From positions 62,001-126,000 of the forward strand of contig NZ_FZNV01000006.1 of the NCBI RefSeq assembly GCF_900188415.1: a stretch of DNA of 64,000 nt, written 5' to 3'. Numbering within the stretch: position 1 is the stretch's first letter; every line of letters begins with the position of its first letter. The notes under the pieces are model-generated. The model made no database searches. It was not told the DNA's origin and saw only the letters and a program-made list of their open reading frames with translations. A program made the translations under genes and the position numbers. Below, in pieces: positions 26,614 to 46,582 of the stretch. Origin of the DNA: Maribacter sedimenticola (GTDB lineage Bacteria > Bacteroidota > Bacteroidia > Flavobacteriales > Flavobacteriaceae).

Positions 26614-26871
26614 ATGAGACTGTTTATCGCTTTTGCCGCACTATTTTTAACTAGCTTTTTGGGTCATGCCCAAAAAACAACAGAAGACAATCCTGCTACA
26701 ACAAGGACAACAAAGACAATTTTAGTTCAAAAGATAGAGACCAAAAAGGCAACACCAATTAAAAGTACAACTGACAAAATTGAAGTAGCTAGGTTGCATA
26801 AACATAAGAACAACAGAATAATTAAGGCATTGGCGTTCGACGTAAAAGCGAACCAACCAAAAATGGCTTAA
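26614..26871 (+). CDS. small secreted basic protein, paralogue A (85 aa)
   Basis: An 85-residue protein with a signal peptide MRLFIAFAALFLTSFLGHA and Gln20 as the likely first mature residue. The mature part is basic and Thr/Lys rich. Its C-terminal core, VARLHKHKNNRIIKALAF (58-75), aligns without gaps to the other three paralogues in the window (AR, KN, I/V and LxF conserved). It ends ...KMA. I do not recognise the family and can name no function. It is monocistronic by spacing, with a 30-bp repeat element upstream that resembles those of the paralogues. The mature product is about 66 residues with no cysteine. Confidence 0.75.
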   Translation: MRLFIAFAALFLTSFLGHAQKTTEDNPATTRTTKTILVQKIETKKATPIKSTTDKIEVARLHKHKNNRIIKALAFDVKANQPKMA

Positions 26872-26967
26872 CGTTACGTTTAACTCTTTTTATTATACGT
26901 GCGCATTTTAGCCAACTCATATTCCAAACTAAATACTTCAAAACAATAACAGTTGACAAAGGATACT

Positions 26968-26975
26968 TATTTTTG
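26968..26975 (+). promoter_or_regulatory. putative -7 element
   Basis: TATTTTTG matches TAnnTTTG exactly, 13 bp before the TTG start of the next gene. A TTG lies only 12 bp upstream, shorter than the usual -33 spacing. Confidence 0.35.
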
Positions 26976-26988
26976 AAAAAAAAATGGT

Positions 26989-27483
26989 TTGTATCAAATA
27001 TTGTCCTTTTTAAAATTCTATGTTACGGCTACCAATCAACACGGTGTACATTCCCCTTTTGTCTATGACTACGTCACAAAATGTTTGTATAAAAAAGAAA
27101 GAATCAGGCTACCTGTAAGTATAAAAGTTCTAGTAAAAAGTATTTTATACTTTAATTACCAAACCGCAAGGTTATTGACCGCGAACAAAAATCTGGAAAA
27201 AGATATATTTGACCATTGCCCTAATGTCAATTTTACCCAAGAAAACCCTATTGTAATTGTTGGCTCCGTTAATGAGATCCTGCACAGTAAAATTCTAGAT
27301 CAGAAACTTGAAAATAAAACAATGCTGTTCATTGATAAAATCCATAAAAATCAAAATACTTTTGAGCAATGGAAACATATACAGGCACATAATCAAGTAA
27401 CCGTTACTATAGATTTGTTTTATTGTGGCTTGGTTTTCGTTAGAAAGGAACAAGTTAAAGAACATTTTAAAATACGGATATAA
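26989..27483 (+). CDS. shortened methyltransferase-like protein, SAM site apparently missing
   Basis: A 164-residue protein with a TTG start. The beginning (SFLKFYVTATNQHGVHSPFVYDYVTKCLY) and the end (VTVTIDLFYCGLVFVRKEQVKEHFKIRI) match, as I recall it, a flavobacterial class I SAM-dependent methyltransferase-like family of about 230-250 residues. In that family the middle holds a LELGTSLG-type SAM-binding loop. Here the middle is about 80 residues shorter and no such glycine loop or acidic motif can be seen. It is either a decayed member or one adapted to a non-enzymatic role. The frame is intact, with no stop or frameshift. Confidence 0.6.
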   Translation: MYQILSFLKFYVTATNQHGVHSPFVYDYVTKCLYKKERIRLPVSIKVLVKSILYFNYQTARLLTANKNLEKDIFDHCPNVNFTQENPIVIVGSVNEILHSKILDQKLENKTMLFIDKIHKNQNTFEQWKHIQAHNQVTVTIDLFYCGLVFVRKEQVKEHFKIRI

Positions 27484-27517
27484 ACCTGTAATTTTAAACT
27501 TAATCTCATCAATAAAA

Positions 27518-27664
27518 ATGAACAATACTATTTACATTATACTGGCAGTAGTATTTGCACTTTATTTGGCACTTACGATAATAAATAGGAACAAATCCAA
27601 ATCCCGCAAATCAAAAAAATTCATGGGCGATTATGAGCGTAAGGATAAGCACAAGAAAAATTAA
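27518..27664 (+). CDS. small single-pass membrane protein (48 aa)
   Basis: A 48-residue protein: one N-terminal membrane helix (TIYIILAVVFALYLALTII) followed by a strongly basic tail (RNKSKSRKSKKF...KDKHKKN). The ATG after AATAAAA is the natural start; the open frame extends upstream into the preceding gene. Function unknown. The layout, with a helix then a positive tail, suggests an inner-membrane protein with a cytoplasmic tail that might contact nucleic acid or acidic lipids; this is only inference. It lies 34 bp after the methyltransferase-like gene. Confidence 0.6.
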   Translation: MNNTIYIILAVVFALYLALTIINRNKSKSRKSKKFMGDYERKDKHKKN

Positions 27665-27756
27665 GCCGTTAATTTCGTGAACCAAAAAATAAGTTACAAT
27701 CAACAAACGGTAAATAAGAACAATATGTTCATTATCCCTTAAAGTTTTATAGTACA

Positions 27757-28332
27757 ATGAAAATATACACAAAAACAGGTGATGATGGCACTACCGGACT
27801 CTTTGGTGGGACCAGGGTTCCCAAACACCATATTAGGATAGAAAGCTATGGCACTATTGATGAGTTAAACTCGTGGTTGGGCCTTATACGCGATCAAAAA
27901 ATAGACACTACCACAAAGGAACAATTAATACAGATTCAAAAAGATTTGTTTACGGTTGGCGCTATTCTGGCTACGGATCCCAATAAAGCGCTTTTAAAAA
28001 ATGGGCAAAAGAGACTGGCCATTTCAACAATAAGTACAAAAGAGCTCCAATTTTTAGAAAAGGCCATTGACGAAATAGATTTAAAATTACCGGCAATGAC
28101 CCATTTTATTCTACCAGGCGGTCACACGACCGTGTCATACTGTCATATTGCCAGAACTGTTTGTAGAAGAGCGGAAAGAATGTCCACCTTGTTATTTAAG
28201 AATGAAAAATTTGATATGACCGTGCTGTCATATTTGAACAGGTTATCAGATTATTTATTTGTATTGGCACGAAAATTGTCTGTAGATCATAAAGCGAATG
28301 AAATAAAATGGGTTCCTGAAAAAAAGGACTAA
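27757..28332 (+). CDS. PduO-type ATP:cob(I)alamin adenosyltransferase
   Basis: A 191-residue enzyme that makes adenosylcobalamin. The N-terminal ATP-binding segment MKIYTKTGDDGTTGLFGG, the following RVPKHHIRIESYGTIDELNSWLG, and the conserved helix CHIARTVCRRAERM with RLSDYLFVLAR all match the PduO family. It is cytoplasmic. The product is the cofactor of methylmalonyl-CoA mutase, whose GTPase chaperone MeaB is encoded about 28 kb away in this window. The gene is preceded by a small membrane protein gene with no evident relation. Confidence 0.93.
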   Translation: MKIYTKTGDDGTTGLFGGTRVPKHHIRIESYGTIDELNSWLGLIRDQKIDTTTKEQLIQIQKDLFTVGAILATDPNKALLKNGQKRLAISTISTKELQFLEKAIDEIDLKLPAMTHFILPGGHTTVSYCHIARTVCRRAERMSTLLFKNEKFDMTVLSYLNRLSDYLFVLARKLSVDHKANEIKWVPEKKD

Positions 28333-28410
28333 TAAAAAGCTAATTTATTCGTTATCAATTTATCAAAGCAAAAAATAATGAAACAAAAATTGATTTTTAA
28401 GGCTAATTTC

Positions 28411-28440
28411 TTGGCTATCTCAATTTAAAAATTACTTTTG
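28411..28440 (+). promoter_or_regulatory. Bacteroidota-type promoter
   Basis: TTG at 28411-28413, a 19-bp spacer, then TACTTTTG at 28433-28440. This fits the TTG-N17-23-TAnnTTTG consensus for the primary sigma factor. The start codon of the DUF2795 gene follows 27 bp later. Confidence 0.75.
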
Positions 28441-28467
28441 CAAAAATTTTAAAATCAAACAATTACT

Positions 28468-28692
28468 ATGTATTGGACATTAGAATTAGCATCTTATTTA
28501 AGTGATGCACCTTGGCCGGCAAGTAAAGATGAGTTAATAGATTACTCTATTAGAACTGGAGCCCCTTTGGAAGTCGTAGAAAATTTACAGTCTATGGAAG
28601 AAGAAGGTGGAGAGATTTATGAATCGATAGAAGAGATTTGGCCTGACTATCCAACGGAAGAAGACTACCTCTGGAACGAGGACGAATATTAA
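28468..28692 (+). CDS. DUF2795 protein (74 aa)
   Basis: A 74-residue acidic protein that matches the DUF2795 pattern: LASYLSDAPWPASKDELIDYSIRTGAPLEVVENLQ, a small helical domain, followed by a very acidic tail (EEEGGEIYESIEEIWPDYPTEEDYLWNEDEY). It is conserved and usually monocistronic in Bacteroidota; function is unknown, though its high conservation suggests a housekeeping role. A consensus promoter lies before it and a strong terminator after it, so it is a separate transcription unit. Confidence 0.85.
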   Translation: MYWTLELASYLSDAPWPASKDELIDYSIRTGAPLEVVENLQSMEEEGGEIYESIEEIWPDYPTEEDYLWNEDEY

Positions 28693-28714
28693 TATTCGAT
28701 ATCATAATAACTAC

Positions 28715-28744
28715 AAAAAAGTCTCTTAGGAGGCTTTTTTTTTA
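28715..28744 (+). terminator. terminator after DUF2795 gene
   Basis: AAAAAAGTCTC pairs with GAGGCTTTTTT (one G-U pair) around the loop TTAG, running into ten T in total. Confidence 0.88.
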
Positions 28745-28907
28745 TGTAATTTTGACAGGTAGTAAGGTTATTTCATAGAAAAACAAAGACTGGAATACCT
28801 TTTGCTATTTTTCAACGTCGACACATTTGCCGACTCTATAATATTTTGAAACCTACCTTGTTCAACTATACGCAAGTTAGGTATCATTTCTAATTAGATT
28901 AAAACAT

Positions 28908-31900
28908 ATGAGTTTCATAAATTCTATCCTAAAGGCCTTTGTTGGTGATAAATCGCAAAAAGATGTAAAGGAGCTTCAACCTTTAGTGGACCAAATAAAA
29001 TCTTTTGAAGTACAGTTGGAAAGCCTGAGCCATGATGAATTAAGGCAAAAGACCTTGGATTTTAAACAAATCATTCAAGATTCCTATAAAGAAAAGACTG
29101 AACAGATCAATGCATTGGAAGAGGAGGTCAAAAACTCAAATGACATTGACAAGAACGAGGATATCTATACGGAGATAGATAAATTAAAGGAAGAAGCTTA
29201 TGCACTTTCTGAAGAAACATTGAACAAAATACTTCCAGAAGCATTTGCAGTGGTCAAGGAAACGGCCAAACGTTTTGCAAATAATGAGACCATTACCGTT
29301 ACCGCTTCTGAATATGACAGAACATTGTCAGGTAGTAAAGGCTATGTTACCTTAGACGGTGATAATGCCATTTGGAAAAACTCCTGGGATGCCGCAGGTA
29401 AAGAAGTAACTTGGGACATGGTGCATTATGATGTACAACTTATAGGAGGTATTGCCTTACACCAAGGTAAGATTGCGGAAATGCAGACAGGTGAAGGTAA
29501 AACTCTTGTGGCTACCCTACCTTTATATTTAAATGCATTAAGTGGAAACGGTGCACACTTGGTTACCGTAAATGATTATTTGGCCAAGAGGGATAGCGCA
29601 TGGATGGCCCCAATTTTTGAATTTCATGGTCTTTCCGTAGACTGTATAGATCACCATAGACCAAATTCCGATGGTAGACGGGCTGCATATAATGCGGATA
29701 TTACGTATGGAACCAACAATGAATTCGGTTTTGATTATTTAAGGGATAATATGGCGCATACCCCAAAAGATTTGGTACAACGCCCCCATAATTACGCCAT
29801 TGTAGATGAGGTAGATTCCGTTTTGGTAGATGATGCGCGTACACCGCTTATTATATCCGGACCCGTACCCGAAGGTGACCGCCATGAGTTTAATGAGTTA
29901 AAACCTAAGGTTAGCGAAATAGTACAAAAGCAGCGGCAGCATTTAACTGGTGTATTGGCGGAAGCTAAAAAATTGATTGCCGAAGGTGATACCAAAGAAG
30001 GAGGATTCCTTTTACTGCGCGTATATCGTGGGCTTCCCAAGAACAAGGCCTTAATAAAATTCTTGAGTGAGGAAGGCGTAAAACAGCTGCTTCAAAAAAC
30101 TGAGAATTTTTATATGCAGGATAACAATAGGGAAATGCCTAAAGTAGATGAGGACCTGTTGTTCGTAATAGATGAAAAAAACAATCAAATAGAATTAACG
30201 GATAAAGGCGTAGACTATATCTCTGGGGAGCAGGACAGGGATTTCTTTGTCATGCCGGATATTGGTGGTGAAATTGCCAAAATAGAAAATCAGAATCTTG
30301 ATATTGAAAAAGAAGCGGAACTAAAGGAAGAATTGTTCAAGGACTTTACCGTTAAGAGTGAGCGTATACATACCATGAGCCAATTATTAAAGGCGTATAC
30401 CTTATTTGAAAAAGATACCGAATATGTGGTCATGGACAATAAGGTGATGATCGTTGACGAACAGACAGGTCGTATTATGGATGGCCGTAGGTATTCTGAC
30501 GGTTTGCACCAAGCCATTGAAGCAAAGGAAAATGTAAAAATAGAAGCCCTAACACAGACCTTTGCAACCGTTACCTTACAGAATTATTTTAGAATGTACA
30601 GCAAGCTTGCGGGTATGACGGGTACGGCAGTTACCGAAGCGGGCGAATTCTGGGAGATCTACAAATTGGATGTTATGGAAATTCCAACCAACAGACCAAT
30701 AGCCAGAGATGATCGTAACGACTTAATCTATAAGACCAAAAGGGAAAAATACAATGCGATCATAGAAGAGGTTACCAAGATCAGTAAAGCTGGTAGACCC
30801 GTATTGATCGGTACAACATCTGTAGAGATATCAGAACTTTTATCAAAACTATTGAGTGTACGCAAGGTTCCCCATAATGTACTGAATGCCAAACTTCATA
30901 AAAAGGAGGCAGACGTAGTTGCTGAGGCCGGTAATGCCGGAGTAGTTACAATTGCTACCAACATGGCGGGTCGTGGTACGGATATTAAATTGTCCGAAGA
31001 AGTTAAAAAAGCTGGAGGACTTGCAATCATTGGTACGGAAAGGCATGATTCACGACGAGTGGACAGACAGCTACGTGGTCGTTCCGGACGTCAAGGAGAT
31101 CCGGGAAGTTCTCAGTTCTATGTTTCTTTGGAAGATAATCTAATGCGTTTGTTCGGTTCTGACAGGGTAGCCAAAATGATGGATAAGATGGGCTTGGAAG
31201 ACGGTGAGGTCATTCAGCACAGTATGATGACCAAATCCATAGAACGCGCACAGAAAAAAGTTGAAGAGAACAACTTTGGCGTACGTAAGCGTCTATTGGA
31301 ATATGATGACGTAATGAACGCACAGCGTGAAGTGGTCTATAAGAGAAGACGTCATGCGTTACAGGGAGAGCGTTTAAAGCTAGATATTGCCAATATGATC
31401 TATGATACCTGTGAGGTAATCGTTGAGGGCAATAAAAATGCCAGTGACTACAAGAATTTTGAATTTGAACTGATCAAGTATTTCTCAATGACCTCTCCCG
31501 TAGAGGAAACTGAGTTTGACAAATCCGGTGCACAGGAAATTACCGCCAAAGTATACAAGGCTGCCTACAAACATTATAATGAAAAAATGGAACGTAATGC
31601 CGCAGCTGCGTATCCGGTAATCAAAAAAGTACATGAGGATAATGCCAATAATTTTGAACGTATCGTTGTGCCTTTTACAGATGGCATTAAAAGTCTAAAC
31701 GTTGTTACCAATCTTCAAGATGCTTACGATACCAATGGCAAACAATTAATAACAGATTTTGAAAAGAATATTTCGTTGGCCATTATTGACGACTCTTGGA
31801 AAACCCATTTGCGTAAAATGGATGAATTGAAACAATCTGTACAATTGGCGGTTCACGAACAAAAGGATCCATTGTTAATTTATAAGTTTGAAGCATTCGA

Positions 31901-32270
31901 GCTTTTCAAGTCCATGATAGAAAAAGTGAACAAAGAAGTTGTTTCCTTTCTTTTTAAAGGGGAACTACCTTCAGAAAACACCAATGCTATTCAAGAAGAA
32001 CGTATGGTTCAGCGTTCAAGGGAAAATTTAAAAACCACCAAAGAGGAAATACCCAATAGTGATGAATTGGCGGCACGTAATAGAGCAGTTGGTCAAAACC
32101 AAGGACAGCGACCTGCTGTTACAGAAACCATTACCAGGGAACAACCAAAAATTGGTAGAAACGAACGTGTTACCATTAAAAATGTAATGAGCGGTGAAAG
32201 TAAAACCGTAAAGTTTAAACAGGCAGAACCGCTGATTCAAAGTGGCTCTTGGGTGTTAACACAAGACTAA
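28908..32270 (+). CDS. secA: protein translocase subunit SecA
   Basis: The motor ATPase of the Sec pathway. With 1120 residues it is about 200 longer than E. coli SecA, which is usual for Bacteroidota; the extra sequence is an N-terminal extension and an insertion around residues 330-470 of the helicase core. Walker A is MQTGEGKT, followed by VNDYLAKRD, DEVDSVLVDDARTPLIISGP, TNMAGRGTDIKL and RQLRGRSGRQGDPGSSQF. The usual C-terminal zinc motif (CxCxSGx8CH) is absent: after GRNE comes RVTIKNVMSGESKTVKFKQA without cysteine. The unit is monocistronic and followed by a terminator. Confidence 0.97.
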   Translation: MSFINSILKAFVGDKSQKDVKELQPLVDQIKSFEVQLESLSHDELRQKTLDFKQIIQDSYKEKTEQINALEEEVKNSNDIDKNEDIYTEIDKLKEEAYALSEETLNKILPEAFAVVKETAKRFANNETITVTASEYDRTLSGSKGYVTLDGDNAIWKNSWDAAGKEVTWDMVHYDVQLIGGIALHQGKIAEMQTGEGKTLVATLPLYLNALSGNGAHLVTVNDYLAKRDSAWMAPIFEFHGLSVDCIDHHRPNSDGRRAAYNADITYGTNNEFGFDYLRDNMAHTPKDLVQRPHNYAIVDEVDSVLVDDARTPLIISGPVPEGDRHEFNELKPKVSEIVQKQRQHLTGVLAEAKKLIAEGDTKEGGFLLLRVYRGLPKNKALIKFLSEEGVKQLLQKTENFYMQDNNREMPKVDEDLLFVIDEKNNQIELTDKGVDYISGEQDRDFFVMPDIGGEIAKIENQNLDIEKEAELKEELFKDFTVKSERIHTMSQLLKAYTLFEKDTEYVVMDNKVMIVDEQTGRIMDGRRYSDGLHQAIEAKENVKIEALTQTFATVTLQNYFRMYSKLAGMTGTAVTEAGEFWEIYKLDVMEIPTNRPIARDDRNDLIYKTKREKYNAIIEEVTKISKAGRPVLIGTTSVEISELLSKLLSVRKVPHNVLNAKLHKKEADVVAEAGNAGVVTIATNMAGRGTDIKLSEEVKKAGGLAIIGTERHDSRRVDRQLRGRSGRQGDPGSSQFYVSLEDNLMRLFGSDRVAKMMDKMGLEDGEVIQHSMMTKSIERAQKKVEENNFGVRKRLLEYDDVMNAQREVVYKRRRHALQGERLKLDIANMIYDTCEVIVEGNKNASDYKNFEFELIKYFSMTSPVEETEFDKSGAQEITAKVYKAAYKHYNEKMERNAAAAYPVIKKVHEDNANNFERIVVPFTDGIKSLNVVTNLQDAYDTNGKQLITDFEKNISLAIIDDSWKTHLRKMDELKQSVQLAVHEQKDPLLIYKFEAFELFKSMIEKVNKEVVSFLFKGELPSENTNAIQEERMVQRSRENLKTTKEEIPNSDELAARNRAVGQNQGQRPAVTETITREQPKIGRNERVTIKNVMSGESKTVKFKQAEPLIQSGSWVLTQD

Positions 32271-32289
32271 TTTAACATACATTTCTTTT

Positions 32290-32324
32290 AAAAAAGCATT
32301 TCATTTTATTGAAATGCTTTTTTT
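32290..32324 (+). terminator. secA terminator
   Basis: AAAAAAGCATTTCA pairs with TGAAATGCTTTTTT around a 6-nt loop; seven T end the hairpin. Confidence 0.92.
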
Positions 32325-32431
32325 ATGTGTAAAATCCTCACTTTTAAATCCCAACTTGTTAAATCAGAATATTATAAAATTTTGGTATAAAAAAAACGGT
32401 ATATTTAAATTACCACTTAAAAAACCGAAAA

Positions 32432-33826
32432 ATGAACAATACCAGGAGAAAATTCATTACTTCTATAGGAATGCTTGCAGCCAGTTCGGCATTTCCTATA
32501 TCAACTTTTGCGTTTAACAAAACTTCTAAATTAAAGGTTGCCTTGGTAGGCACCGGTATTAGGGGCACCACTTTTTGGGGTAAACGTTTGGTAGATGAAT
32601 ATGGTGAAATATTGGAATTTGTAGGTTTATCCGATATTAACTCAAGCCGCTTAAAATATGCCATGAAATTCATAGGAGCGGACTGCCCGCTCTTTACGGA
32701 TTTTGAAGAGATGATACAAAAGACTGAACCTGATTTGGTCATCGTTACCACTAAAGACTCCACTCATCATGAATACATTATTAAAGGATTGGAAATGGGC
32801 TGTGATGTCCTTACGGAAAAACCGTTGACTACGGACGAAATCAAATGCCAAGAAATTATTGATGCAGAAAAGAAATCGGACAAAAAGTTAATTGTAGGTT
32901 TTAATTATCGATGGAGTCCGTATGCTACAAAAATCAAGGAATTGATAAGCAACAAAACCATAGGAGATTTGGTTTCCGTAGATTTCCATTGGTACCTTAA
33001 TACGTATCATGGTGCATCTTATTTTAGGAGATGGCATGGAGAAATGGAAAGCAGTGGTTCTTTATGGGTTCATAAATCTACCCATCATTTTGATTTGTTA
33101 AATTGGTGGATAAATTCTGAACCTAAAGAAGTATTTGCCTATGGCGATTTGGAATTTTATGGCAAAAACGGACCGCAAAGAGGTCCCAATTGCAGGTCAT
33201 GTGACCATAAATCCACTTGTGAGTTCTATTGGGATATTACAAAGGATGAGTCCATGAAAAAACTTTATGCCGACCATGAGCATGAAGATGGTTATATCAG
33301 GGACAATTGTCTCTTTAGGAACGAGATAGATATTTATGATAAAATGTCCGCACAGGTTAAATATACCGATAATACGGTAGTCAATTATAGCTTAACGACC
33401 TACTCCCCTTTTGAAGGTTGGCGTGTTTCGTTCAACGGAACAAAGGGCAGAATTGAAGCTTCTGAGGATATACCCTACCATTCGGTCAGCACGGTCAGTG
33501 AAGCTGAAAAACATGCTTTGGAAATGGCCCAGAATAATAAAGAGGAAGAAAATTTTGGTTCGATCGTTGTGCATAAATTATGGGAAAAACATGAGGTTGT
33601 CAAAGTACCCATTGAAAAAGGGGGCCATGGAGGCGGTGATAAGCGTCTTCATGATAAAATCTTTGTCAATCCAGAAACTACAGACCCTTATGGCAGAACT
33701 GCAGGCATTAGGGATGGGGCCATGTCCGTCTTAATAGGAATTGGAGCAAGAAGGAGTATAGAGTCAGGAAAAGCTATTAAAATTGGTGATTTAACAGACC
33801 TGGAACCTAAAAAAATACGTTCATAA
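32432..33826 (+). CDS. Gfo/Idh/MocA-family oxidoreductase with Tat signal
   Basis: A 464-residue NAD(P)-dependent sugar oxidoreductase. The N-terminus (NNTRRKFITSIGMLAASSAF) is a twin-arginine signal. The Rossmann domain follows (LKVALVGTGIRGTTFWGKR), with the conserved EKPLTTDE segment (Lys of EKP is catalytic in the family). A four-cysteine cluster, CRSCDHKSTCEFY (about residues 252-264), plus a later Cys (DNCLF) looks like a metal site and is not part of the usual family fold. The export route links it to TatC in this window. The substrate is unknown; in Bacteroidota such periplasmic members act on glycosides. Confidence 0.9.
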   Translation: MNNTRRKFITSIGMLAASSAFPISTFAFNKTSKLKVALVGTGIRGTTFWGKRLVDEYGEILEFVGLSDINSSRLKYAMKFIGADCPLFTDFEEMIQKTEPDLVIVTTKDSTHHEYIIKGLEMGCDVLTEKPLTTDEIKCQEIIDAEKKSDKKLIVGFNYRWSPYATKIKELISNKTIGDLVSVDFHWYLNTYHGASYFRRWHGEMESSGSLWVHKSTHHFDLLNWWINSEPKEVFAYGDLEFYGKNGPQRGPNCRSCDHKSTCEFYWDITKDESMKKLYADHEHEDGYIRDNCLFRNEIDIYDKMSAQVKYTDNTVVNYSLTTYSPFEGWRVSFNGTKGRIEASEDIPYHSVSTVSEAEKHALEMAQNNKEEENFGSIVVHKLWEKHEVVKVPIEKGGHGGGDKRLHDKIFVNPETTDPYGRTAGIRDGAMSVLIGIGARRSIESGKAIKIGDLTDLEPKKIRS

Positions 33827-33941: not shown

Positions 33942-35162
33942 ATGCCCGGATTTACCATTGACCAAGAGCGTCTACAGGATAAAACCAAATTATTTTTAAG
34001 GGTAAGTTATGCCACTAGTATCATCTCCATATTATTTGGGGCCATATGCTATTTCATATTGCATGTTACCCAAATAATACCGTTTGTATTAGTTGCATTT
34101 GGTATAATAAACCTTATAAACCTACAATATTTCAAGGTCCATAAGCAAATTTTACCTACGTTCAATTTTTCATCGGTCATTGGGCTTATATCTGCATTTG
34201 TGGTAACCCTTTATAGTGGTGGTATTCAAAGTCCGTTTATATTCATGCTTCCCTTAATAGGTTTTGGCGGGTTTGTCAATAGTAGTAAATATGGCAGAAA
34301 TTATTTTAATCTAATTTACGTTCTAATTTGCTTGCTTTTTACGCAAACTATACCAAGTTTAAGGGTTACGGAAAATGTAGTTCCGGTAGAATACTTTGGA
34401 ACGTTTAGTTTTCTTTCCATATTGATCTCGGTATTCCTATTGGGTAATACCTTTGGCAAAAGTTTGTTAAAAACCTACAATGCTTTATATACGTCCAAAA
34501 AAAATATGGCTATTCAGGTTCATGAAAAAGAGAACCTATTAAAGGAAGTACACCATAGGGTAAAAAATAATTTACAGACCGTTTCAAGTTTATTGAGCCT
34601 GCAATCCAGGAACATTGAAAACGGACCTATGAAAGGACTTCTAAAAGGGACACAAAACAGGGTTATAGCCATGGCTATGGTTCACGAAATGTTATATATG
34701 CGTAATGATATTAGCCATATAGAATATAAATCGTACGTGCAAGAATTGAGCGAATACCTTATACGTTCCATAAAAGGAATTGAAAATTCAATTGTGTTAA
34801 ATATTGAAATCCCCAATATTAAATTAGGTATTGATACCGCCATACCTTTAGGATTGTTAATCAATGAAGCATTGACGAATGCCTTAAAATATGGAATTGA
34901 AGGTGACGATTCCGGAGAAATCCATATTAAATTACAAAAAGACCAGGCCAAACAAAACTGTTATATTTTGGAAATTGGCGATAATGGAAAAGGTTTCCCA
35001 GATACGGTAAATTATAAGAATACTAAATCATTAGGGCTAAAACTAATACATAACCTTACCCGCCAATTAAGAGGCACCATAGAAAGGGACCATTCTAAAA
35101 AAGGAACTAATTACATCATACAGTTTCAAGAAATTAATCAGCAGTTAAACCAGACCCTATAA
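33942..35162 (+). CDS. membrane sensor histidine kinase (HisKA_2 type)
   Basis: A 406-residue kinase. The first 175 residues hold about six membrane helices without a large extracytoplasmic domain. A short linker leads into a HisKA_2 domain with KEVHHRVKNNLQTVSSLLSLQ; H205 (of HRVKN) is the likely phosphoacceptor. The ATPase domain has N-box INEALTNALKYG and G-box EIGDNGKGFP. No response regulator is adjacent, so it is an orphan kinase. The nearest receiver protein in the window is a single-domain regulator 28 kb away. The signal sensed is unknown. Confidence 0.9.
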   Translation: MPGFTIDQERLQDKTKLFLRVSYATSIISILFGAICYFILHVTQIIPFVLVAFGIINLINLQYFKVHKQILPTFNFSSVIGLISAFVVTLYSGGIQSPFIFMLPLIGFGGFVNSSKYGRNYFNLIYVLICLLFTQTIPSLRVTENVVPVEYFGTFSFLSILISVFLLGNTFGKSLLKTYNALYTSKKNMAIQVHEKENLLKEVHHRVKNNLQTVSSLLSLQSRNIENGPMKGLLKGTQNRVIAMAMVHEMLYMRNDISHIEYKSYVQELSEYLIRSIKGIENSIVLNIEIPNIKLGIDTAIPLGLLINEALTNALKYGIEGDDSGEIHIKLQKDQAKQNCYILEIGDNGKGFPDTVNYKNTKSLGLKLIHNLTRQLRGTIERDHSKKGTNYIIQFQEINQQLNQTL

Positions 35163-39417: not shown

Positions 39418-39533
39418 AACTTCTTCTTGTCCACACGCACTTTGATCGCTTGTAGTTTATTTTGTTTTCTTGTATTAATGGTAAACACTGCAAGAACAAT
39501 AAGTACTGGTATTAAAATCGTAAGTAAAATCAT
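39414..39533 (-). CDS. possible 39-aa membrane peptide
   Basis: A short frame (39 codons) opposite the end of the amidohydrolase gene: MILLTILIPVLIVLAVFTIN followed by a basic tail TRKQNKLQAIKVRVDKKKF. One membrane helix with a positive C-terminal tail resembles the 48-aa protein at 27.5 kb in layout. The start ATG lies 51 bp after the stop codon of secreted paralogue B, with which it could be cotranscribed, but a hairpin lies between them. No clear ribosome binding site. Too short for composition tests, so uncertain. Confidence 0.4.
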   Translation of the reverse strand: MILLTILIPVLIVLAVFTINTRKQNKLQAIKVRVDKKKF

Positions 39534-39545
39534 AATTCAATATTT

Positions 39546-39571
39546 AAAAGGTGCTTCGTTGCACCTTTTTT
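39546..39571 (+). terminator. terminator of the M14/amidohydrolase unit
   Basis: AAAAGGTGC pairs with GCACCTTTT around TTCGTT, followed by further T on the plus strand (six in total). On the minus strand only four T precede A, so it is weaker there. Confidence 0.85.
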
Positions 39572-39584
39572 AATATGGCAAAGA

Positions 39585-39842
39585 TTATGCCAATTTACCG
39601 TAATTTTTCTTTGTAATAAAGGCCAATTCCCTACTGACCCTAGAATTCTTGTATCTATATAAACGGGCTATTGAAGTTTCGTCAGAAACTGTAACCTTTT
39701 CCTCAAGGTCAGAATCACTAATGCTACCAACCATAACAATACCCATTTCAAGAGTGTCAACTTTATCATTTTGCTTTGTATTTTGAGCCAGTGCAACCCC
39801 ACCGGCAAAAAGAATTATTAATAAGGTAAAAAGTGTTTTCAT
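39585..39842 (-). CDS. small secreted protein, paralogue B (85 aa)
   Basis: An 85-residue protein with signal peptide MKTLFTLLIILFAGGVALA and Gln20 as likely mature N-terminus. An acidic middle (DSDLEEKVTVSDE) is followed by the family core IARLYRYKNSRVSRELAF (58-75), which occupies the same residue positions as in paralogue A. The end is ...KLA. No known domain. The upstream region holds the clearest 21-bp-spaced repeat pair of the family. Function is unknown; the shared core suggests a common receptor, nucleic acid or surface-binding role, but this is not shown. Confidence 0.78.
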   Translation of the reverse strand: MKTLFTLLIILFAGGVALAQNTKQNDKVDTLEMGIVMVGSISDSDLEEKVTVSDETSIARLYRYKNSRVSRELAFITKKNYGKLA

Positions 39843-39938
39843 AACTGATCTAAATACAATGTAAAGATACCTTCAGGTGTTGAAGAGTGCCCGTTGACCT
39901 CGCTGAAGTGCTATAATTTTCGCTTATTGTAATTTTCA

Positions 39939-39968
39939 TTGATGAATAGACAAAAAGTATCGACGAAT
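39939..39968 (-). promoter_or_regulatory. 21-bp-spaced direct repeat upstream of paralogue B
   Basis: Read toward the gene: ATTCGTCGA, 12 bp, ATTCATCAA (7 of 9 identical). It ends 96 bp before the start codon. The 9+12+9 layout is that of LytTR-type regulator sites; the base sequence is not the published LytTR consensus. Confidence 0.55.
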
Positions 39969-39987
39969 GGTTTTTAGGTCAAAAACC

Positions 39988-40016
39988 ACATGTCGAAACA
40001 GTGTGCATTTCGTCGA
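39988..40016 (+). repeat. related half-sites pointing away from paralogue B
   Basis: On the plus strand ACATGTCGA and TTTCGTCGA (20 bp apart) share TCGA-type half-site bases with the element upstream of paralogue B but in inverted orientation. With that element they place ATCGACGAA-like sequences facing each other across a hairpin. Confidence 0.4.
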
Positions 40017-40205
40017 TGATATTAAATTACAAGAATGTTCAACAGGAGTAATTCAGTACAAAAAAAACTAGATTGCCGAGTACAATTTATGATGAAGAAG
40101 CACTAGATATGAGCAGATTTGATCATCTGCAATACCTTATGGTTATGTTTATCGTACTTTATATAAAAGAATTGTTGTTAGGGTAGTTTAAAAATAATAT
40201 TGAAA

Positions 40206-41555
40206 TTATCTTTTCTTACGTTTGGCATAATTTTTATCTCCCCTGGTCTTTGGTTTGGAATATTTCTTTTTGATAATGCGCTTATAGGAACCACCTTGAT
40301 TCTGCTTTTTGTTCTTTTCCGATTTCTCATGAAAGCTGGCACCACGTTCCTCCTCATTAATGTGTAGAGGATTTTCACGCTCCCTATGTTTGGGTTGTTC
40401 ATCATAGGTGAGTTTGGTTGCTATTTCCACATCTTCGGGCAACGTTTTTAATGGTATTTCCTGTCCCATTAAAGTCTCAATAGCTTCCTTATATTCAGTT
40501 TCTGCAGGAGTATACAGTAATATTGAAGTACCCTCCTTCTCTGCCCTACCGGTTCTACCAATACGATGCATATAATTTTCTGGATATACCGGGGTATCAA
40601 AATTGATGACATGAGAGATTTCTTGTAGGTCCAGCCCCCTAGCCATTACATCTGTTGTCACCAAAATGCGGTTCTTACCCTCATCAAACTGGTTAATGGA
40701 CCGTAACCTATAGTTTTGGGTTTTATTGGAATGGATGATACAAATCTCTTCACTAAAAAACTCTGCCATTTCCTTGAAAAGTAAATCTGCACTTCGCTTG
40801 CTAGAAACAAAAACCAACACCTTATGAAATTCAGTTTCATTCTGTAATAGATGCACCAAAAGGTTCACTTTGGTATAAAAATTAGGTGTGGCATAGCCAA
40901 GTTGCTTAATATTTTCCAAAGGTGTACCACTAACGGCAATAGCTATTTTTTGGACTCCCTTAAAAAAATCAGCAATAAAAATATCGATATCATCGGTCAT
41001 GGTGGCAGAGAACATTATGTTCTGCCTTCTTTGAGGTAACAATTCAAAAATATTTATCAATTGAAATCTAAAACCTAGGTCTAGCATTACATCGACCTCA
41101 TCAATCACCAGTTTTTTAACTTGCTTGAGTTGCACCGCCTTGGTCAATATTAAATCATATAACCGTGCCGGAGTAGCCACTAAAACATCCGTACCCTGAG
41201 CCAATGCCTCTTTCTGACGCAGCATGCTCTTACCTCCAAAAACTCCAAGTACACGAATACCAGAATACTTAGCAAGTTTTTCCGTTTCTTCCACAACCTG
41301 GACCACCAACTCCCTAGTGGGCACCAAGATTACTACTTTAGGATGAATTTCTTTAGAAAATGTCAACGTGTTTAAAATAGGAAGCAAATAGGCAAATGTC
41401 TTTCCTGTACCTGTTTGCGCAATTCCTACCACATCACTACCACTCATAACTATTGGAAAAGCTTTTTCCTGAATAGGGGTAGTTTGTTCAAAACCTAAAT
41501 CTGCCAACGCTTTTTCAAGGTTTCTAGAAATCTTTAAATCGGTAAACAAGGACAT
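40206..41555 (-). CDS. DEAD-box RNA helicase
   Basis: A 449-residue superfamily 2 RNA helicase of the RhlE/DeaD group. The Q motif is GFEQTTPIQ, motif I AQTGTGKT (46-53), motif II DEVD (152-155, in place of DEAD), motif III SAT (FSATM), and motif VI HRIGRTGRAE. The C-terminal tail of about 75 residues is lysine-rich and disordered-looking (NKKQNQGGSYKRIIKKKYSKPKTRG), which would bind RNA. The DEVD variant keeps the two acidic residues needed for catalysis. It stands alone. Roles in ribosome assembly or cold adaptation are typical for the family. Confidence 0.92.
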   Translation of the reverse strand: MSLFTDLKISRNLEKALADLGFEQTTPIQEKAFPIVMSGSDVVGIAQTGTGKTFAYLLPILNTLTFSKEIHPKVVILVPTRELVVQVVEETEKLAKYSGIRVLGVFGGKSMLRQKEALAQGTDVLVATPARLYDLILTKAVQLKQVKKLVIDEVDVMLDLGFRFQLINIFELLPQRRQNIMFSATMTDDIDIFIADFFKGVQKIAIAVSGTPLENIKQLGYATPNFYTKVNLLVHLLQNETEFHKVLVFVSSKRSADLLFKEMAEFFSEEICIIHSNKTQNYRLRSINQFDEGKNRILVTTDVMARGLDLQEISHVINFDTPVYPENYMHRIGRTGRAEKEGTSILLYTPAETEYKEAIETLMGQEIPLKTLPEDVEIATKLTYDEQPKHRERENPLHINEEERGASFHEKSEKNKKQNQGGSYKRIIKKKYSKPKTRGDKNYAKRKKR

Positions 41556-41723
41556 ATAATGACTTTTGTATTAAAATGCAAAGCTATGTGGATTAGTTGA
41601 CAAATCACGCAAAGTGAGACAATTATCAGGTTATTGGTATAAAATTAGGGTTTAGACCAATAATAATCCACTACCGTGGGGTGTTTTGTATTTAGTCCTT
41701 GTTTAGCCCTAGATTAAATACTG

Positions 41724-44276
41724 TTAACTTCCTTCTTTACGTAACACCTCTAAAGGCGGACTTTTTAAAATCCCCCTGCTATTGAACCATCCTATAAACA
41801 ACACCAATAAGGTAATGCCAGGCAGAAGAATTATAAACGGAACATAAGAAGGTACAAATGGCGTGTCAAAAACAAAATAGGCGAGCAAAAAGCTGCTGAG
41901 CAATGAAAGTAGTACACCTACCCCACTACCTAATATGCCTAAAAATAAATACTCCAAAGCATTTATTTTTAAAATCTGTTTGCTTTGTGCTCCCAATGTA
42001 CGTAACAAGACACTTTCACGTATTCGTTGGTATTTGCTATTGCGTACGGAACCTATTAAAACAATGATTCCTGTTAGGATACTAAAAAATGCCATAAAGG
42101 TGATGACCCATGAAATTTTGTCCAATATATTTTCGATTAGGGAAACAACTTGTCTTAAATCAATGATAGATACATTTGGAAACTTACGCACTAGCTCTCT
42201 CTGCAAATTGGCCGATGATTTTTTATCTGGTGCGTTCGTGGTAAGAACATGAAACTGCGGTGCATTCTCCAATACGCCTTGCGGAAAAACAATGGAAAAG
42301 TTAAGTTGCATCCGTGCCCAATCCACTTGCCTTATATTACCTACCACTGTAGTCATTAATTTACCTTGAACATTGAACAACAATGTATCTCCAATGGTAA
42401 CCAGTGCATCATTGGCCACATTATTCGCCAATGATATTGGTATTACCTTTGCATTGGGGTCTACACGTTCTATCCATTCCCCTTCCAATAATTTTTCTGA
42501 CCCGATCATGGAATCCCTATAGGTGGTTCTAAACTCGTGATTTAAAATCCACTTGTTCACCCGCGTAGTTGTGTCTAATCGAATATCATTTACGGATCGG
42601 TCCTTTATACGTTCCAATCGCATGGTTACTATTGGAATATTATCTATTAAGGGCAATCCTTTTGGGGTAATTGTATTTGCTACCTCATTGCGCTGATCGG
42701 TCTGTACATCAAAAAGTATTAGATTAGGACTTTGCTCATTCGTTTCAAAAGCAGTTTTTGCCAATAAAAAATCTTTGGTAAAGTATAAAGTACTAATTAA
42801 AAATGTACCTATACCAATTGCCAATATCAGTACTACGGTTTGGTTGTTCGGTCTAAAGAGATTCAACAAACTTTGACGGGCCGCAAAACTCCATGATTTT
42901 GGAAAGTATCTCTTTATCAAGCGCATAAACCCAATGGACACCAATCCCAAAATGGAGAACGTTACCAATATACCTAGGACAAAACCGGCAGCAAAAGTCC
43001 AACGGCCCAATAGCCAATAAGCAAACCAAAAAACAAACAGGATAATGGTCAACATGACCCAAAGTTGATACGGTCTAGATTTTTTACCAGTGTCCTCTTG
43101 TACACGCAGTACCTGTAATGGAGATACAAACCAGGTATTAATTAAAGGGGACAGTGCAAATAGAACCGACATAATCACCCCTAACGACAACCCTACAAAA
43201 ATAGCTTGGAACGAAGTGGAAATCTCCACCTCAAATGGTAAAAACTCCTGTAATATTAATGGAAACGTCTGTTGCAATAGTAATCCTATTACCGTTCCAA
43301 TAAGTCCGCCCAAAAGACCCATTCCAGCAATCTGAAGTAGAAAAATCATGAATGTTTGTTTACGGGTCGCCCCCAAACATTTTAGTACGGCGACCGCCTT
43401 CAATTTTTCCTTAATATAAATATGTACGGAACTGGCAATACCCACGCACCCTAACAATAGGGCAATAAAGGCTACCAAATTTAAAAACCGGCCAACATTG
43501 TCATAGCGTCGTCCCAGACGTTCACTGGTATCCGTATGCGTATCCATATCTGCATTTTCGGCATCCAGCATAGGATCAACCATTTTATCCAGCTGTTTTA
43601 AATCTATTGTAGCATTCTTAAAATAGTAGTTATATTCCAACCTACTTCCACGTTGTAATAGTCCGCTCCGTTCCATGAAACGAAAGGGTACAATAATGGG
43701 CGGTGCCGCAGTGGCCCCAATGGCCGTACTACCCGGGGCGGTTAACAATGAACCTACAATAGGAAAGGTAATGTCACCCAATTTTACGCTATCGCCCGGC
43801 TGAAGATTATACTGTAACATAGCGGTAGCATCTACCAAGGCCCCGCCTAATTCTTGATAGGAATTTGCGGCACTGGCAGGCTCCGTCTCCAGCTCCCCGT
43901 AAAATGGAAAATTACCATCTATACCACGTACCTGTACTAATTTTGTATTGCCGTTTTTCAAAAAAGCTGCCATAGAGGCAAAATTGACTTCTTTAGCATC
44001 TGCCCCACCAAGGGAATCCATTAATTCCTCTACCCTTTCATTGGCAGGTTGGTTGCTGTCTATTAAAAAATCTGCACCCATAAGCGCTTTGGACTGCAGG
44101 CCAATATTTTCTTTTAGATTATTGCTGAAGGATTGTATGGAAACCACGGCGCTAATTCCTAAAATAATGGAGGCCATGAACAATAACAATCGTTTGCCAC
44201 TGGCTTTGCCATCTCGCCAAGCCATTTTAACCAACCAGCTAAAGTCTGCCTTTGAAATCCGTTTTAAGTTGCTCAA
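41724..44276 (-). CDS. FtsX-like ABC transporter permease (YbbP-like)
   Basis: An 850-residue permease with ten predicted membrane helices: an N-terminal anchor, a periplasmic domain (about 50-255), FtsX core domain (about 260-390), further helices, a second periplasmic domain (about 500-710) and a second FtsX core (about 715-850). This double-FtsX layout is that of E. coli YbbP. It is coupled to the ATPase gene upstream by an ATGA overlap (4 bp). The divergent neighbour is a tesA-like esterase gene, the same neighbourhood as tesA-ybbA-ybbP of E. coli. The substrate is unknown; lipoprotein or lipid handling has been proposed for this class. Confidence 0.9.
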   Translation of the reverse strand: MSNLKRISKADFSWLVKMAWRDGKASGKRLLLFMASIILGISAVVSIQSFSNNLKENIGLQSKALMGADFLIDSNQPANERVEELMDSLGGADAKEVNFASMAAFLKNGNTKLVQVRGIDGNFPFYGELETEPASAANSYQELGGALVDATAMLQYNLQPGDSVKLGDITFPIVGSLLTAPGSTAIGATAAPPIIVPFRFMERSGLLQRGSRLEYNYYFKNATIDLKQLDKMVDPMLDAENADMDTHTDTSERLGRRYDNVGRFLNLVAFIALLLGCVGIASSVHIYIKEKLKAVAVLKCLGATRKQTFMIFLLQIAGMGLLGGLIGTVIGLLLQQTFPLILQEFLPFEVEISTSFQAIFVGLSLGVIMSVLFALSPLINTWFVSPLQVLRVQEDTGKKSRPYQLWVMLTIILFVFWFAYWLLGRWTFAAGFVLGILVTFSILGLVSIGFMRLIKRYFPKSWSFAARQSLLNLFRPNNQTVVLILAIGIGTFLISTLYFTKDFLLAKTAFETNEQSPNLILFDVQTDQRNEVANTITPKGLPLIDNIPIVTMRLERIKDRSVNDIRLDTTTRVNKWILNHEFRTTYRDSMIGSEKLLEGEWIERVDPNAKVIPISLANNVANDALVTIGDTLLFNVQGKLMTTVVGNIRQVDWARMQLNFSIVFPQGVLENAPQFHVLTTNAPDKKSSANLQRELVRKFPNVSIIDLRQVVSLIENILDKISWVITFMAFFSILTGIIVLIGSVRNSKYQRIRESVLLRTLGAQSKQILKINALEYLFLGILGSGVGVLLSLLSSFLLAYFVFDTPFVPSYVPFIILLPGITLLVLFIGWFNSRGILKSPPLEVLRKEGS

Positions 44277-44962
44277 GATATCGCCGTGGTTTCGTTGATT
44301 ACTATTTTACCACCTTTTAAGCGCAACACATGCTGATTTAATCTTGCCAAGTCCAGGTCATGGGTTACTATTACCAAAGTAGTTCCCATTTCCTTATTTA
44401 GGTCAAACAATAATTTGATCACTTTTTTACCGGTTTCTTCGTCAAGATTACCCGTAGGCTCATCAGCAAATAAAATTTCGGGTTTGGTACTAAATGCACG
44501 TGCAAGCGCTACACGTTGTTGTTCCCCGCCTGATAATTGGGAAGGATAATGGTCATATCTGCTGCCCAACCCAACTTTATCCAAAAGTTCCTTTGCATCT
44601 TTGGACGCATTTTTAACCCCTTGTAGCTCTAAGGGCACACTAACGTTCTCCAACGCCGTTAACGTAGGAAGCAGTTGAAAATCCTGAAAAATAAAACCAA
44701 CCTTTTCATTTCTAAGAAGAGCACGTTGATCCTCGTTCAAGCCGTTTAAATCTTCCCCACATAAAGTTATTGTTCCTTCATCAATTTGGTCCAAACCCGC
44801 ACATAGTCCTAACAGAGTAGTTTTACCACTGCCCGATGGACCTACTATGGCAAAACTTGAACCTGCCTCTATTGAGAATGAAATATTATCGAGAACCGTT
44901 AATTTCTTTGATCCACTGGTATAGACCTTCTTTAGGTTGTGAACGTTTAATATCTTTGTCAT
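44273..44962 (-). CDS. ABC transporter ATP-binding protein (YbbA/LolD-like)
   Basis: A 229-residue ATPase of the MacB/LolD/YbbA class. Walker A is GPSGSGKT (41-48), followed by LCAGLDQIDEGTI, signature LSGGEQQRVALARAF and Walker B ILFADEPTGNLDEETG. The EPTGNLD sequence and the length fit YbbA/LolD rather than import-type ATPases. It is the partner of the double-FtsX permease encoded directly downstream with a 4-bp overlap. It is divergent from the esterase gene, 61 bp apart, so one shared promoter region serves both. Confidence 0.92.
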   Translation of the reverse strand: MTKILNVHNLKKVYTSGSKKLTVLDNISFSIEAGSSFAIVGPSGSGKTTLLGLCAGLDQIDEGTITLCGEDLNGLNEDQRALLRNEKVGFIFQDFQLLPTLTALENVSVPLELQGVKNASKDAKELLDKVGLGSRYDHYPSQLSGGEQQRVALARAFSTKPEILFADEPTGNLDEETGKKVIKLLFDLNKEMGTTLVIVTHDLDLARLNQHVLRLKGGKIVINETTAIS

Positions 44963-45023
44963 AAATCATTTTCTACAAGAGAACAAAATAAGCAAATGAT
45001 TTGGATTCTAATTAGATAAGGCT

Positions 45024-45767
45024 ATGTTGAAAGTATTAAAGTTTCGTTATTTTTTATGTGCATTGCTTATTATAGGTTGTAAGGAAAATGTTGAAAAAAA
45101 GAAAGTTGAACCTAATGAAAATGGCACGAAAGTAACGGAACAAGAAACGTTGGAAACGGATGGAAAGGTCATCTTATTTTATGGAAACAGTCTTACCGCC
45201 GCTTATGGATTGGATACCGAGCAGGGTTTTCCACAAAGAATACAAGAGCGTTTGGACTCCTTAGACTTACATTATAAAGTCATTAATTCCGGTTTAAGTG
45301 GGGAAACCACTTCTGGAGGTCTAAACAGGTTGGACTGGGTGCTAAACCAGCCAGTAGATATTTTTGTATTGGAACTAGGAGCCAATGATGGTTTAAGGGG
45401 AATACCCATTACGGAATCAATGAACAACCTACAGACCATGATCAACATGGTTAAAGACAGGAACCCAGAAACCCGAATAATACTTGCCGGCATGCAGATA
45501 CCTCCAAATATGGGTGCAGATTATGCTACACAGTTCAAGCAAATGTATCCCGCCTTGGCAGAATCCAATAATATTTATCTCATTCCATTTTTATTGGAAG
45601 GCGTTGCAGGAATACCTGAATTGAATTTGGAAGATGGTATACACCCTACGGCAGAAGGTCAAAAAATTGTGGCCGAAAATGTTTGGGAAATATTAAAGCC
45701 TATAGTCACCACAGGTTTGGAAAATTCGGAAATTTTGGAAAGCGATAAGAATACAATGAACAATTAG
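45024..45767 (+). CDS. TesA-like SGNH/GDSL esterase, lipoprotein
   Basis: A 247-residue lipoprotein (lipobox LIIGC, Cys19) of the SGNH hydrolase family, like acyl-CoA thioesterase I/arylesterase TesA. Block I reads YGNSLTAAYGL, with S56 as nucleophile; the usual GDSL is GNSL here, which still leaves the serine. Block II has the glycine in INSGLSGETT, block III is ELGANDGLRG (N121), and block V is DGIHPTAEGQ with D204 and H207. All catalytic positions are present. The gene is divergent from the ybbA-ybbP pair as in E. coli, and its stop overlaps paralogue C by 4 bp. Confidence 0.9.
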   Translation: MLKVLKFRYFLCALLIIGCKENVEKKKVEPNENGTKVTEQETLETDGKVILFYGNSLTAAYGLDTEQGFPQRIQERLDSLDLHYKVINSGLSGETTSGGLNRLDWVLNQPVDIFVLELGANDGLRGIPITESMNNLQTMINMVKDRNPETRIILAGMQIPPNMGADYATQFKQMYPALAESNNIYLIPFLLEGVAGIPELNLEDGIHPTAEGQKIVAENVWEILKPIVTTGLENSEILESDKNTMNN

Positions 45768-46003
45768 GCTACCAATGTTCTTCTTGAAATTGGCTTAAAC
45801 GCCAAAGCTCTTTTAATTCTAGCATTCTTGACTTTAAAAAACCTTGCAGCTGTTTGGGAACTCATAGATAATCTTTCTGCCAAAGGTTTTGCTTGCGCCA
45901 TAGGCATAACAATAACCTGTACTCTTTTGGCCGGAGGATTTTCCTGTGCTTGGGACAATGTTCCCAAACAGATAACAAGGAATAAAAATATAAGGGTACG
46001 CAT
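45764..46003 (-). CDS. small secreted basic protein, paralogue C (79 aa)
   Basis: A 79-residue protein with signal peptide MRTLIFLFLVICLGTLSQA and Gln20 as likely mature N-terminus. The mature part is strongly basic. Its core TAARFFKVKNARIKRALAF (51-69) aligns with the other family members: AR, KN, I and ALAF retained. It ends ...LVA. The 3' end overlaps the convergent esterase gene by 4 bp. The upstream 30-bp element has the same 21-bp repeat spacing. Function unknown. It is the shortest and most basic member of the family in this window. Confidence 0.78.
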   Translation of the reverse strand: MRTLIFLFLVICLGTLSQAQENPPAKRVQVIVMPMAQAKPLAERLSMSSQTAARFFKVKNARIKRALAFKPISRRTLVA

Positions 46004-46345
46004 AAGTAGGTAAATTTGGTTTGTAGATAACTACCCGTTTCTAATTTTACGTACTTTCAATTCGACAAAAGGTATATTTTTTACGATGAAATGTTAGCTT
46101 TTCGATGTATTACCATTTTTTGTAGTCCGTTTTCCTACAAAAACATTTACCGATAATCGATAAAACCGTACATTTCATCCGTATTGTAATTAAATTCCTA
46201 CAATTATTCAATATCCAGTATATTCCTTCTTACAAAACAATTTACTTACTTATAATCACAGTTACAGGTCTTTATCTTAGGTTTACAATTTATACGAAAA
46301 AGAATTGAAGAATATCATTATCAATATAATACCCTATAGATAACA
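46004..46345. other. intergenic region between paralogues C and D
   Basis: A 342-bp AT-rich spacer. It carries the repeat element of paralogue C (46062-46091) and further partly related words (ACATTTCATCCG at 46170-46181, ATAATCGATAAAA at 46153-46165). TAAATTTG at 46011 matches a -7 element on the plus strand but has no gene after it. No open frame or RNA gene that I can support. Confidence 0.5.
46062..46091 (-). promoter_or_regulatory. 21-bp-spaced direct repeat upstream of paralogue C
   Basis: Read toward the gene: TTTCATCGT, 12 bp, TTTTGTCGA (6 of 9 identical). It ends 58 bp before the start codon, about the same distance as in paralogue A. Confidence 0.5.
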
Positions 46346-46582
46346 TTAGACCTTTTTGGACTTATTGGCCTTGGTGATGAAATTCAGCTCTCTTTTTATC
46401 TTCGAATTTTTAGACCTGTACAAACGTGCTGTTTGGTTATAATCCTTGGCGTTGAATTCCTTGGTAATTTTAGGTGCATTGATCATTTCAATAGTTTCAA
46501 CCTTAACGTCCTTACCTTTATCCTGTGCTTGGACAGCAATTCCTATAAAGAGGATAAAGATGATAGATACTATTGTTTTCAT
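46346..46582 (-). CDS. small secreted basic protein, paralogue D (78 aa)
   Basis: A 78-residue protein starting MKTIVSIIFILFIGIAVQA, with Gln20 as likely mature N-terminus. An in-frame ATG 11 codons upstream would spoil the signal peptide, so it is not used. The core TARLYRSKNSKIKRELNF (51-68) matches paralogue B closely (ARLYR-KNS--(K)REL-F). The C-terminus is lysine-rich (ITKANKSKKV). A consensus promoter (-33 TTG, 23-bp spacer, TAGGTTTG) and a 21-bp-spaced repeat lie upstream. Function unknown. Together with paralogue C it forms the densest part of the family. Confidence 0.8.
   Translation of the reverse strand: MKTIVSIIFILFIGIAVQAQDKGKDVKVETIEMINAPKITKEFNAKDYNQTARLYRSKNSKIKRELNFITKANKSKKV

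Follow-up and report, generated by a model that had tools for sequence, protein, structure and literature searches.

LytTR-type response regulators, according to PMC4847170, bind two repeats of 9-11 nucleotides (nt) with 11-13 nt between them, at sites that have no common consensus. In PMC4847170 and PMC4064291, YpdB is described as binding GGCATTTCAT and AlgR as binding CCGTTCGTC and variants such as CCGTTCATC. Here, we analyzed a locus of Maribacter sedimenticola that resembles the targets of such regulators, within a stretch of 64,000 nt (contig NZ_FZNV01000006.1, positions 62,001 to 126,000; hereafter the window) where four genes, copies A to D, encode small proteins with signal peptides. 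The locus can also be compared with the Agr and Pln peptide regulons, whose kinases AgrC and PlnB belong to the HPK10 class. By their sequences, the four proteins belong to an undescribed protein family, whose members are small and predicted to be exported and of which marine flavobacteria like Maribacter have several copies. The strongest clues to its role are a promoter element shared by many copies, a linked histidine kinase and homologues in phages, none of which had been recognized in a first-pass annotation of the window.

A family of small proteins with a basic C-terminal core

The four open reading frames (ORFs) were found where the first-pass annotation had placed them, on the same strands, and their lengths of 85, 85, 79 and 78 residues agree with its range of 78-85 (Table 1). 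In all four proteins, a variable linker connects the signal peptide to a C-terminal core that is basic. The Gln noted earlier at residue 20 is present in each protein as A19-Q20, and the core pattern AR(L/F)xxxKNxx(I/V)x(R/K)xLxF was likewise recovered in all of them. Nine columns of the alignment are invariant, six of which lie within the core (A59, R60, K65, N66, L73 and F75 in A numbering). The absence of Cys, also claimed earlier, holds for the mature parts, whereas protein C contains a Cys at residue 12 within the signal peptide. With the four proteins, every Pfam and NCBIfam model stayed below its cut-off, in keeping with the earlier remark that no named family was known. When 46 members were compared with the two databases, the best expect values (E) were 0.0047 and 8.7e-4, respectively, with at most 6 of the 46 members matching any one family. 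A search of solved structures returned only two weak matches, both to chloroplast ribosomal L24 (E 0.12 and 0.2), and one query searched against plasmids gave no match. As for the literature, the library searched gave no paper joining LytTR binding sites, Flavobacteria and polysaccharide, nor one on a small secreted protein with Maribacter, and this statement covers these two topics.

When the whole genome was searched with D alone, E was 7.5e-10 for B, 7.2e-4 for C and 1.3e-18 for a fifth, D-type copy located on another contig (G000:C11:316321), so that the likeness exceeds chance; copy A was missed at a threshold of 1e-3 and joins the family through a profile of the four proteins. With the profile, a short match of 54 residues was also obtained (G000:C10:353460, E 1.6e-6), which consists of the core only and has no signal peptide. 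Thus, the four copies described earlier are real but do not make up the full set, as the genome holds a fifth copy and a short relative. C and D adjoin each other, and relatives show tandem arrays.

The first-pass annotation had also named two outcomes that would refute its reading, namely a profile search without further members and a lack of purifying selection on the core, and neither was obtained. The four-protein profile gave matches in 25 of 25 Maribacter genomes including this one, with 2-9 matches each at E<=0.01, and in 49 of 299 genomes sampled from the bacterial family the best match was below 1e-8. This count excludes 52 of the 101 genomes at E<=0.001, whose best E lay between 1.5e-5 and 9.9e-4; in the own genome, matches of that strength were mostly signal-peptide ends of larger frames. 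Among 15 genomes of other bacterial families, three gave weak matches (best 0.0026-0.0043) and 12 gave none. Named loci that bear the family include those of Maribacter, Arenibacter, Cellulophaga, Flagellimonas/Muricauda, Eudoraea and Croceivirga. From 187 loci we collected 349 family ORFs, some of which may be counted twice because loci overlap, and 266 distinct proteins. The C-terminus is (K/R)(L/M/I)(A/S/T/V/C) in 229 of the 258 distinct proteins of at least 68 residues, and the last residue is A, S, T or V in 256 of them; an AxA motif lies within residues 13-40 in 214, with Q next to it in 152. A, B, C and D are old groups across the genus Maribacter, accompanied by extra local and tandem duplicates, and not merely four local variants.

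For the measurement of selection, Maribacter members were assigned to groups A-D by sequence patterns, and the ratios of nonsynonymous to synonymous substitution (dN/dS) were pooled over pairs, which are not independent. For the last 30 residues, dN/dS was 0.12 (A), 0.15 (B) and 0.22 (C), and the core is under purifying selection in these three groups. The core of group D was saturated at synonymous sites, where the proportions of nonsynonymous and synonymous differences were 0.15 and 0.78, respectively. Linker values for A, B, C and D were 0.26, 0.90, 0.39 and 0.27.

Two further arrangements were observed in relatives. One locus (L122:8570-10993) contains four tandem family copies at a spacing of exactly 725 bp, with the upstream region within the unit. 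In three Maribacter genomes, a core-only relative of 54-59 residues without a signal peptide stands beside metG (L083:7442-7606, L085:4777-4956 and L086:4241-4420), and it has no strong upstream element of the kind described below.

Table 1. Positions in the window of the family genes, their upstream elements and the linked kinase, followed by homologues in phages (aa, amino acids).
Feature	Position	Strand	Description and basis
Copy A	26614..26871	+	85 aa; signal peptide and core ARLHKHKNNRIIKALAF; recovered by whole-genome profile search
Copy B	39585..39842	-	85 aa; recovered by whole-genome profile search
Copy C	45764..46003	-	79 aa; recovered by whole-genome profile search
Copy D	46346..46582	-	78 aa; recovered by whole-genome profile search; structure modelled
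CCGTTCGTC, identical to AlgR core site, ~80 bp before copy A	26526..26534	+	Sole exact match in window; mean of 0.06 expected in shuffles
Upstream element of copy B (paired LytTR-like sites)	39859..40022	-	nhmmer E 2.1e-20; R1 E 1.2e-16; B is a row of both models
Upstream element of copy D	46583..46759	-	nhmmer E 1.8e-24; R1 E 1.2e-16; D is a row of both models
Four loose LytTR-like sites before copy C	46062..46167	-; sites on both strands	Full element unrecognised; R1 just E 9.4, on opposite strand
Membrane histidine kinase (HisKA_2, HATPase_c)	33942..35162	+	Pfam; synteny and co-occurrence across genera; putative part of the system
Mollyvirus Colly1_6			65 aa; signal peptide and ARLYKFKNSRIKKALNFETKK
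Callevirus phi38:1 gp072 and Calle1_29			50 aa; without signal peptide
Helsingorvirus phi18:1 gp19			59 aa; signal peptide
Cbastvirus phiST unannotated ORF	L396:1381-1596		71 aa; signal peptide
IMG/VR contig core-only ORF	L395:7767-7880		37 aa; host unrecorded

An upstream element with paired sites

In relatives, tandem copies have in common a stretch before the gene and not the gene alone. When 56 upstream regions were aligned, a conserved block of about 180 bp was obtained that reaches the start codon. A profile of the upstream region, built partly from the same loci that were then searched, gave 363 matches at E<=10, with 269 directly before called family ORFs and 94 elsewhere. Among the latter, 23 were at E<1e-12 and the remainder at 0.0025 or weaker. 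We traced 18 of the 23 strong places, of which 16 run into a family protein (three of these cut by the locus end) and two run off the locus; of the other five, two are repeats of traced places in an overlapping locus. Four weak places were traced as well, two leading into divergent family-like proteins and two not. A sequence-only model of the element with 128 positions, denoted as R1, matched strongly at three places of the own genome. These precede B, D and the fifth copy, and each is itself a model row. Across 12 further genomes that bear the family, all 39 R1 matches at E<1e-5, some of them model rows, precede family genes. Weaker matches occur elsewhere, the best at 6.2e-5 (G222:C4), and four genomes without the family gave 0.014-0.077.

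The element contains a repeated word arranged in pairs, with up to three pairs. In 55 elements, the spacing within the pairs was 20-21 bp in 51 of 52, 24 of 26 and 46 of 51 cases, counting pairs in which both sites were found by the pattern, and this agrees with the two-repeat rule for LytTR regulators as given in PMC4847170. By eye, the genome site TGCATTTCATCGA is similar to the YpdB site, and the AlgR site before copy A is an exact match. The word TGYANTTYATCGR occurs 24 times in the own genome, compared with 8 times for the reversed control. Some of its places precede a sugar acetyltransferase-like gene and lipoproteins of SCSKDxDLLSEYV type, as read from the protein starts, and other places lie within genes or near unrelated genes. 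Because of the paired spacing, the likeness to YpdB and AlgR sites and the excess of TGYANTTYATCGR, control of the family genes by a LytTR-type regulator is likely, judging from the predicted sites.

Sites like TGCATTTCATCGA, paired at a distance of 20 bp, also occur at L296:1501-1555 and L306:1501-1533 of the own genome, near superoxide-dismutase-like and sugar-acetyltransferase-like genes. We also considered a structured RNA in the upstream region and rejected it, since RNAalifold gave just 5 pairs with -0.92 kcal/mol on the 56 sequences. In 80 kb of relatives nothing reached the Rfam gathering score, and at 22000-54500 of the window there were two matches, both beneath that score and neither at family genes.

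Linked kinase, phage homologues and predicted helix

In many genera, the gene order is secA, sometimes an oxidoreductase gene, one to three histidine kinase genes, an M14 peptidase gene and an amidohydrolase gene, followed by family genes that face them. Beyond the facing genes, the order often continues with FtsX/LolD, a GDSL esterase, further family genes, an M23 peptidase and msrA, and variable genes are interspersed. In all 24 loci of one set (the window and those among L117-L156 where both were seen), secA and the closest family gene have the kinase between them. In the sample of 299 genomes, a model of the N-terminal part of the kinase matched 46 at E<=1e-20, with at most 10 candidates scored per genome; 49 have the family and 40 have both. 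Of the nine genomes with the family only, five do have the locus kinase (G124, G188, G202, G141 and G190), in three of them with a shorter membrane part, and G173, G096 and G214 were left unclassified. Six genomes had the kinase only; four of them (G099, G115, G315 and G325) were rejected as counter-examples, as their kinase is at another locus beside apparent ribosomal-protein genes, G069 was unclassified owing to a contig end, and in G294 the kinase follows secA and the family is absent. Among 20 genomes without a family match below 1e-8 (six with weak matches), G294 was the one with a kinase after secA, and in four the gene after secA reads as an M23 peptidase. The kinase and the family look as if they had entered the interval together, although shared descent of the locus would produce the same pattern.

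The products are small and predicted to be exported, a membrane kinase adjoins them in every locus of the set above, and the genes are preceded by LytTR-like sites. On these grounds, the ligand of the kinase could be the exported protein itself or a piece of it that includes the C-terminal helix. The kinase would then activate a LytTR regulator that raises family expression in an autoinducing loop, and the phage copies would be mimics. By Pfam, however, the kinase has HisKA_2 and HATPase_c domains, so it is not of the AgrC/PlnB type, and some orthologues have a short membrane part. Moreover, no LytTR gene stands beside the kinase or elsewhere in the window, and copies without a signal peptide exist. 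We regard such peptide signalling as rather unlikely.

Several observations concern the interval itself. The secA-msrA interval (window 26871-48000; L120, L127, L143, L145 and L152) carries variable, mostly ordinary genes between the copies in several genera, and it looks like an insertion hotspot. In G294 (L339:7366-9700), the secA-linked kinase without the family faces genes for a membrane-like protein of 126 residues and an ECF-sigma-like factor. Past msrA in the window (51948-54451), there are genes for an ECF sigma factor (Pfam), a putative anti-sigma factor of 188 residues without a Pfam match and a protein of 474 residues, and this trio recurs in loci of other genera.

Homologues were also found in phages. 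In a comparison with PHROG 26162, a match at E<=0.01 was obtained for 20 of 46 host members (best 8.1e-7), and the signal-less host type matched at 8.4e-6; the window proteins matched weakly (0.018-0.14), apart from B, which was unmatched. When a Cellulophaga member was compared with 50,697 phage records using tblastn, 15 records were obtained with E of 6e-4 to 0.2, and the phages concerned all have Maribacter forsetii or Cellulophaga as host. With the signal-less host copy as query, 16 records were obtained (E 0.3-0.4), several of them duplicate entries of one phage, and these two host genera were again the only ones represented. Against 446 phage ORFs, the host profile scored the homologues at 2e-17 to 1.4e-6 and the next best ORF at 0.53. 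On this comparison, four named genera of Maribacter or Cellulophaga phages and one viral contig encode predicted homologues (Table 1), with signal peptides called by reading the sequence. The upstream element is absent from the examined phage stretches at E<=10, so that the protein would be made in infection regardless of the host state. The homologue genes go unmentioned in the consulted passages of PMC8776804 and PMC11946311, which deal with these phages.

Homologues in four phage genera with recorded hosts Maribacter or Cellulophaga, some with signal peptides, might mean that the host proteins alter the envelope against phages, or that the phage copies exclude other phages. At the host locus we recognised neither a defence nor a phage context, and the nine cargo proteins between the copies that were scanned with Pfam are ordinary, none being defence-like; such a role seems rather improbable.

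In 245 family proteins, the median charge is -3 for the linker and +8 for the last 30 residues. The moment of the core helix is 0.44, compared with 0.29 (standard deviation 0.14) in shuffled sequences, and the helix is mostly polar with a mean hydrophobicity of -0.34. In the model of D, which has a mean pLDDT of 71 and is mainly one helix, the signal helix and a disordered linker precede a helix at 45-66, and a further, short helix spans 74-77. As the linker charges of A-D are +4, -6, +2 and 0, only B among the window copies fits the acidic-linker pattern. The best explanation of these features is that the working part may be a C-terminal basic amphipathic helix with a K-(L/M)-(A/S) end, predicted to follow a variable, usually acidic, disordered linker.

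Such a charge pattern and helix moment could also belong to an antimicrobial or membrane-active peptide, in which the acidic linker would cover a cationic amphipathic helix until its release following export. We consider this quite improbable, since polar residues prevail in the helix, neither a processing nor an immunity gene was recognised, signal-less copies would act within the producer, and the linkers of A and C are basic. That the repeated DNA matters as a recombination or insertion hotspot, with the protein incidental, would suit the 725-bp tandem units and the copies that bracket variable ordinary genes in several genera; it is highly improbable, being already weakened by the selection on the core and by phage homologues that retain the core without the upstream element. 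A nascent-chain arrest peptide, suggested by the position of A near secA and a core of about exit-tunnel length, was rejected because B and C end against opposite-strand genes and signal-less copies exist.

Proposed role and comparison with described systems

The family, its signal-peptide pattern, purifying selection, the predicted helix, the promoter element at many copies, the linked kinase and the phage homologues were all computed here. As an explanation, we tentatively propose, with a little less than an even chance of being right, that these are LytTR-controlled exported proteins that act at the envelope or outside, perhaps as a signal, and that phages have taken up copies. A LytTR-type response regulator would bind the paired sites about 20-21 bp apart and switch each family gene, with the neighbouring membrane histidine kinase acting in that regulatory pathway. 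The protein would leave the cytoplasm and serve, in the periplasm or beyond the cell, as a signal or as a factor of the envelope or surface, alongside the other targets of those sites. Phages that infect these hosts would have acquired promoter-free copies.

Several points weigh against this proposal. A model of action only outside is hampered above all by the host and phage copies that have no signal peptide, which it fails to explain. The own genome has 18 LytTR matches, with none in the window and no adjacent LytTR gene, and copies A and C are without the full element. In G241, no kinase separates secA from the family genes that follow it, and the link to the kinase could stem from shared descent of the locus. 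The overall confidence of the D model is low (predicted template modelling score 0.27), and the linkers of A and C depart from the acidic type.

A wider version of the proposal takes in the signal-less copies. The exported cationic protein, the membrane kinase and the LytTR-type multi-site promoter would form a secreted-peptide circuit of marine flavobacteria, which phages entered repeatedly through their own copies free of host control, some exported and some intracellular, thereby influencing the state of the surface or of signalling in the infected cell and in neighbouring cells. As a whole, this version is improbable.

The proposal of LytTR-controlled exported proteins offers three handles on the family: its promoter hints at the class of the regulator, a kinase is linked to it, and the gene is present in phages. 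Since phages carry it, the role of the family is testable; if they use it, dropping a gene of about 60 residues from a phage could reveal the role of a widely duplicated host protein. Furthermore, TGCATTTCATCGA is a candidate site for a wider Maribacter regulon, with some places before apparent polysaccharide and surface-lipoprotein genes.

Taken together, the locus has partial counterparts among known systems. The proteins of PHROG 26162 resemble the host members and the signal-less host type in profile matches, whereas they have no assigned function and the examined phage copies are without the upstream element. With Agr and Pln, the locus shares small exported products, a membrane kinase and LytTR-like sites before the genes; in contrast, it has a Sec-type signal peptide, a kinase of HisKA_2 type, no adjacent LytTR gene and no known processing gene. 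The promoters of LytTR-type regulons, those of AlgR in Pseudomonas and YpdB in E. coli, are alike in having paired sites 20-21 bp apart with similar site words, whereas the element described here has up to three pairs and is tied to a single protein family.

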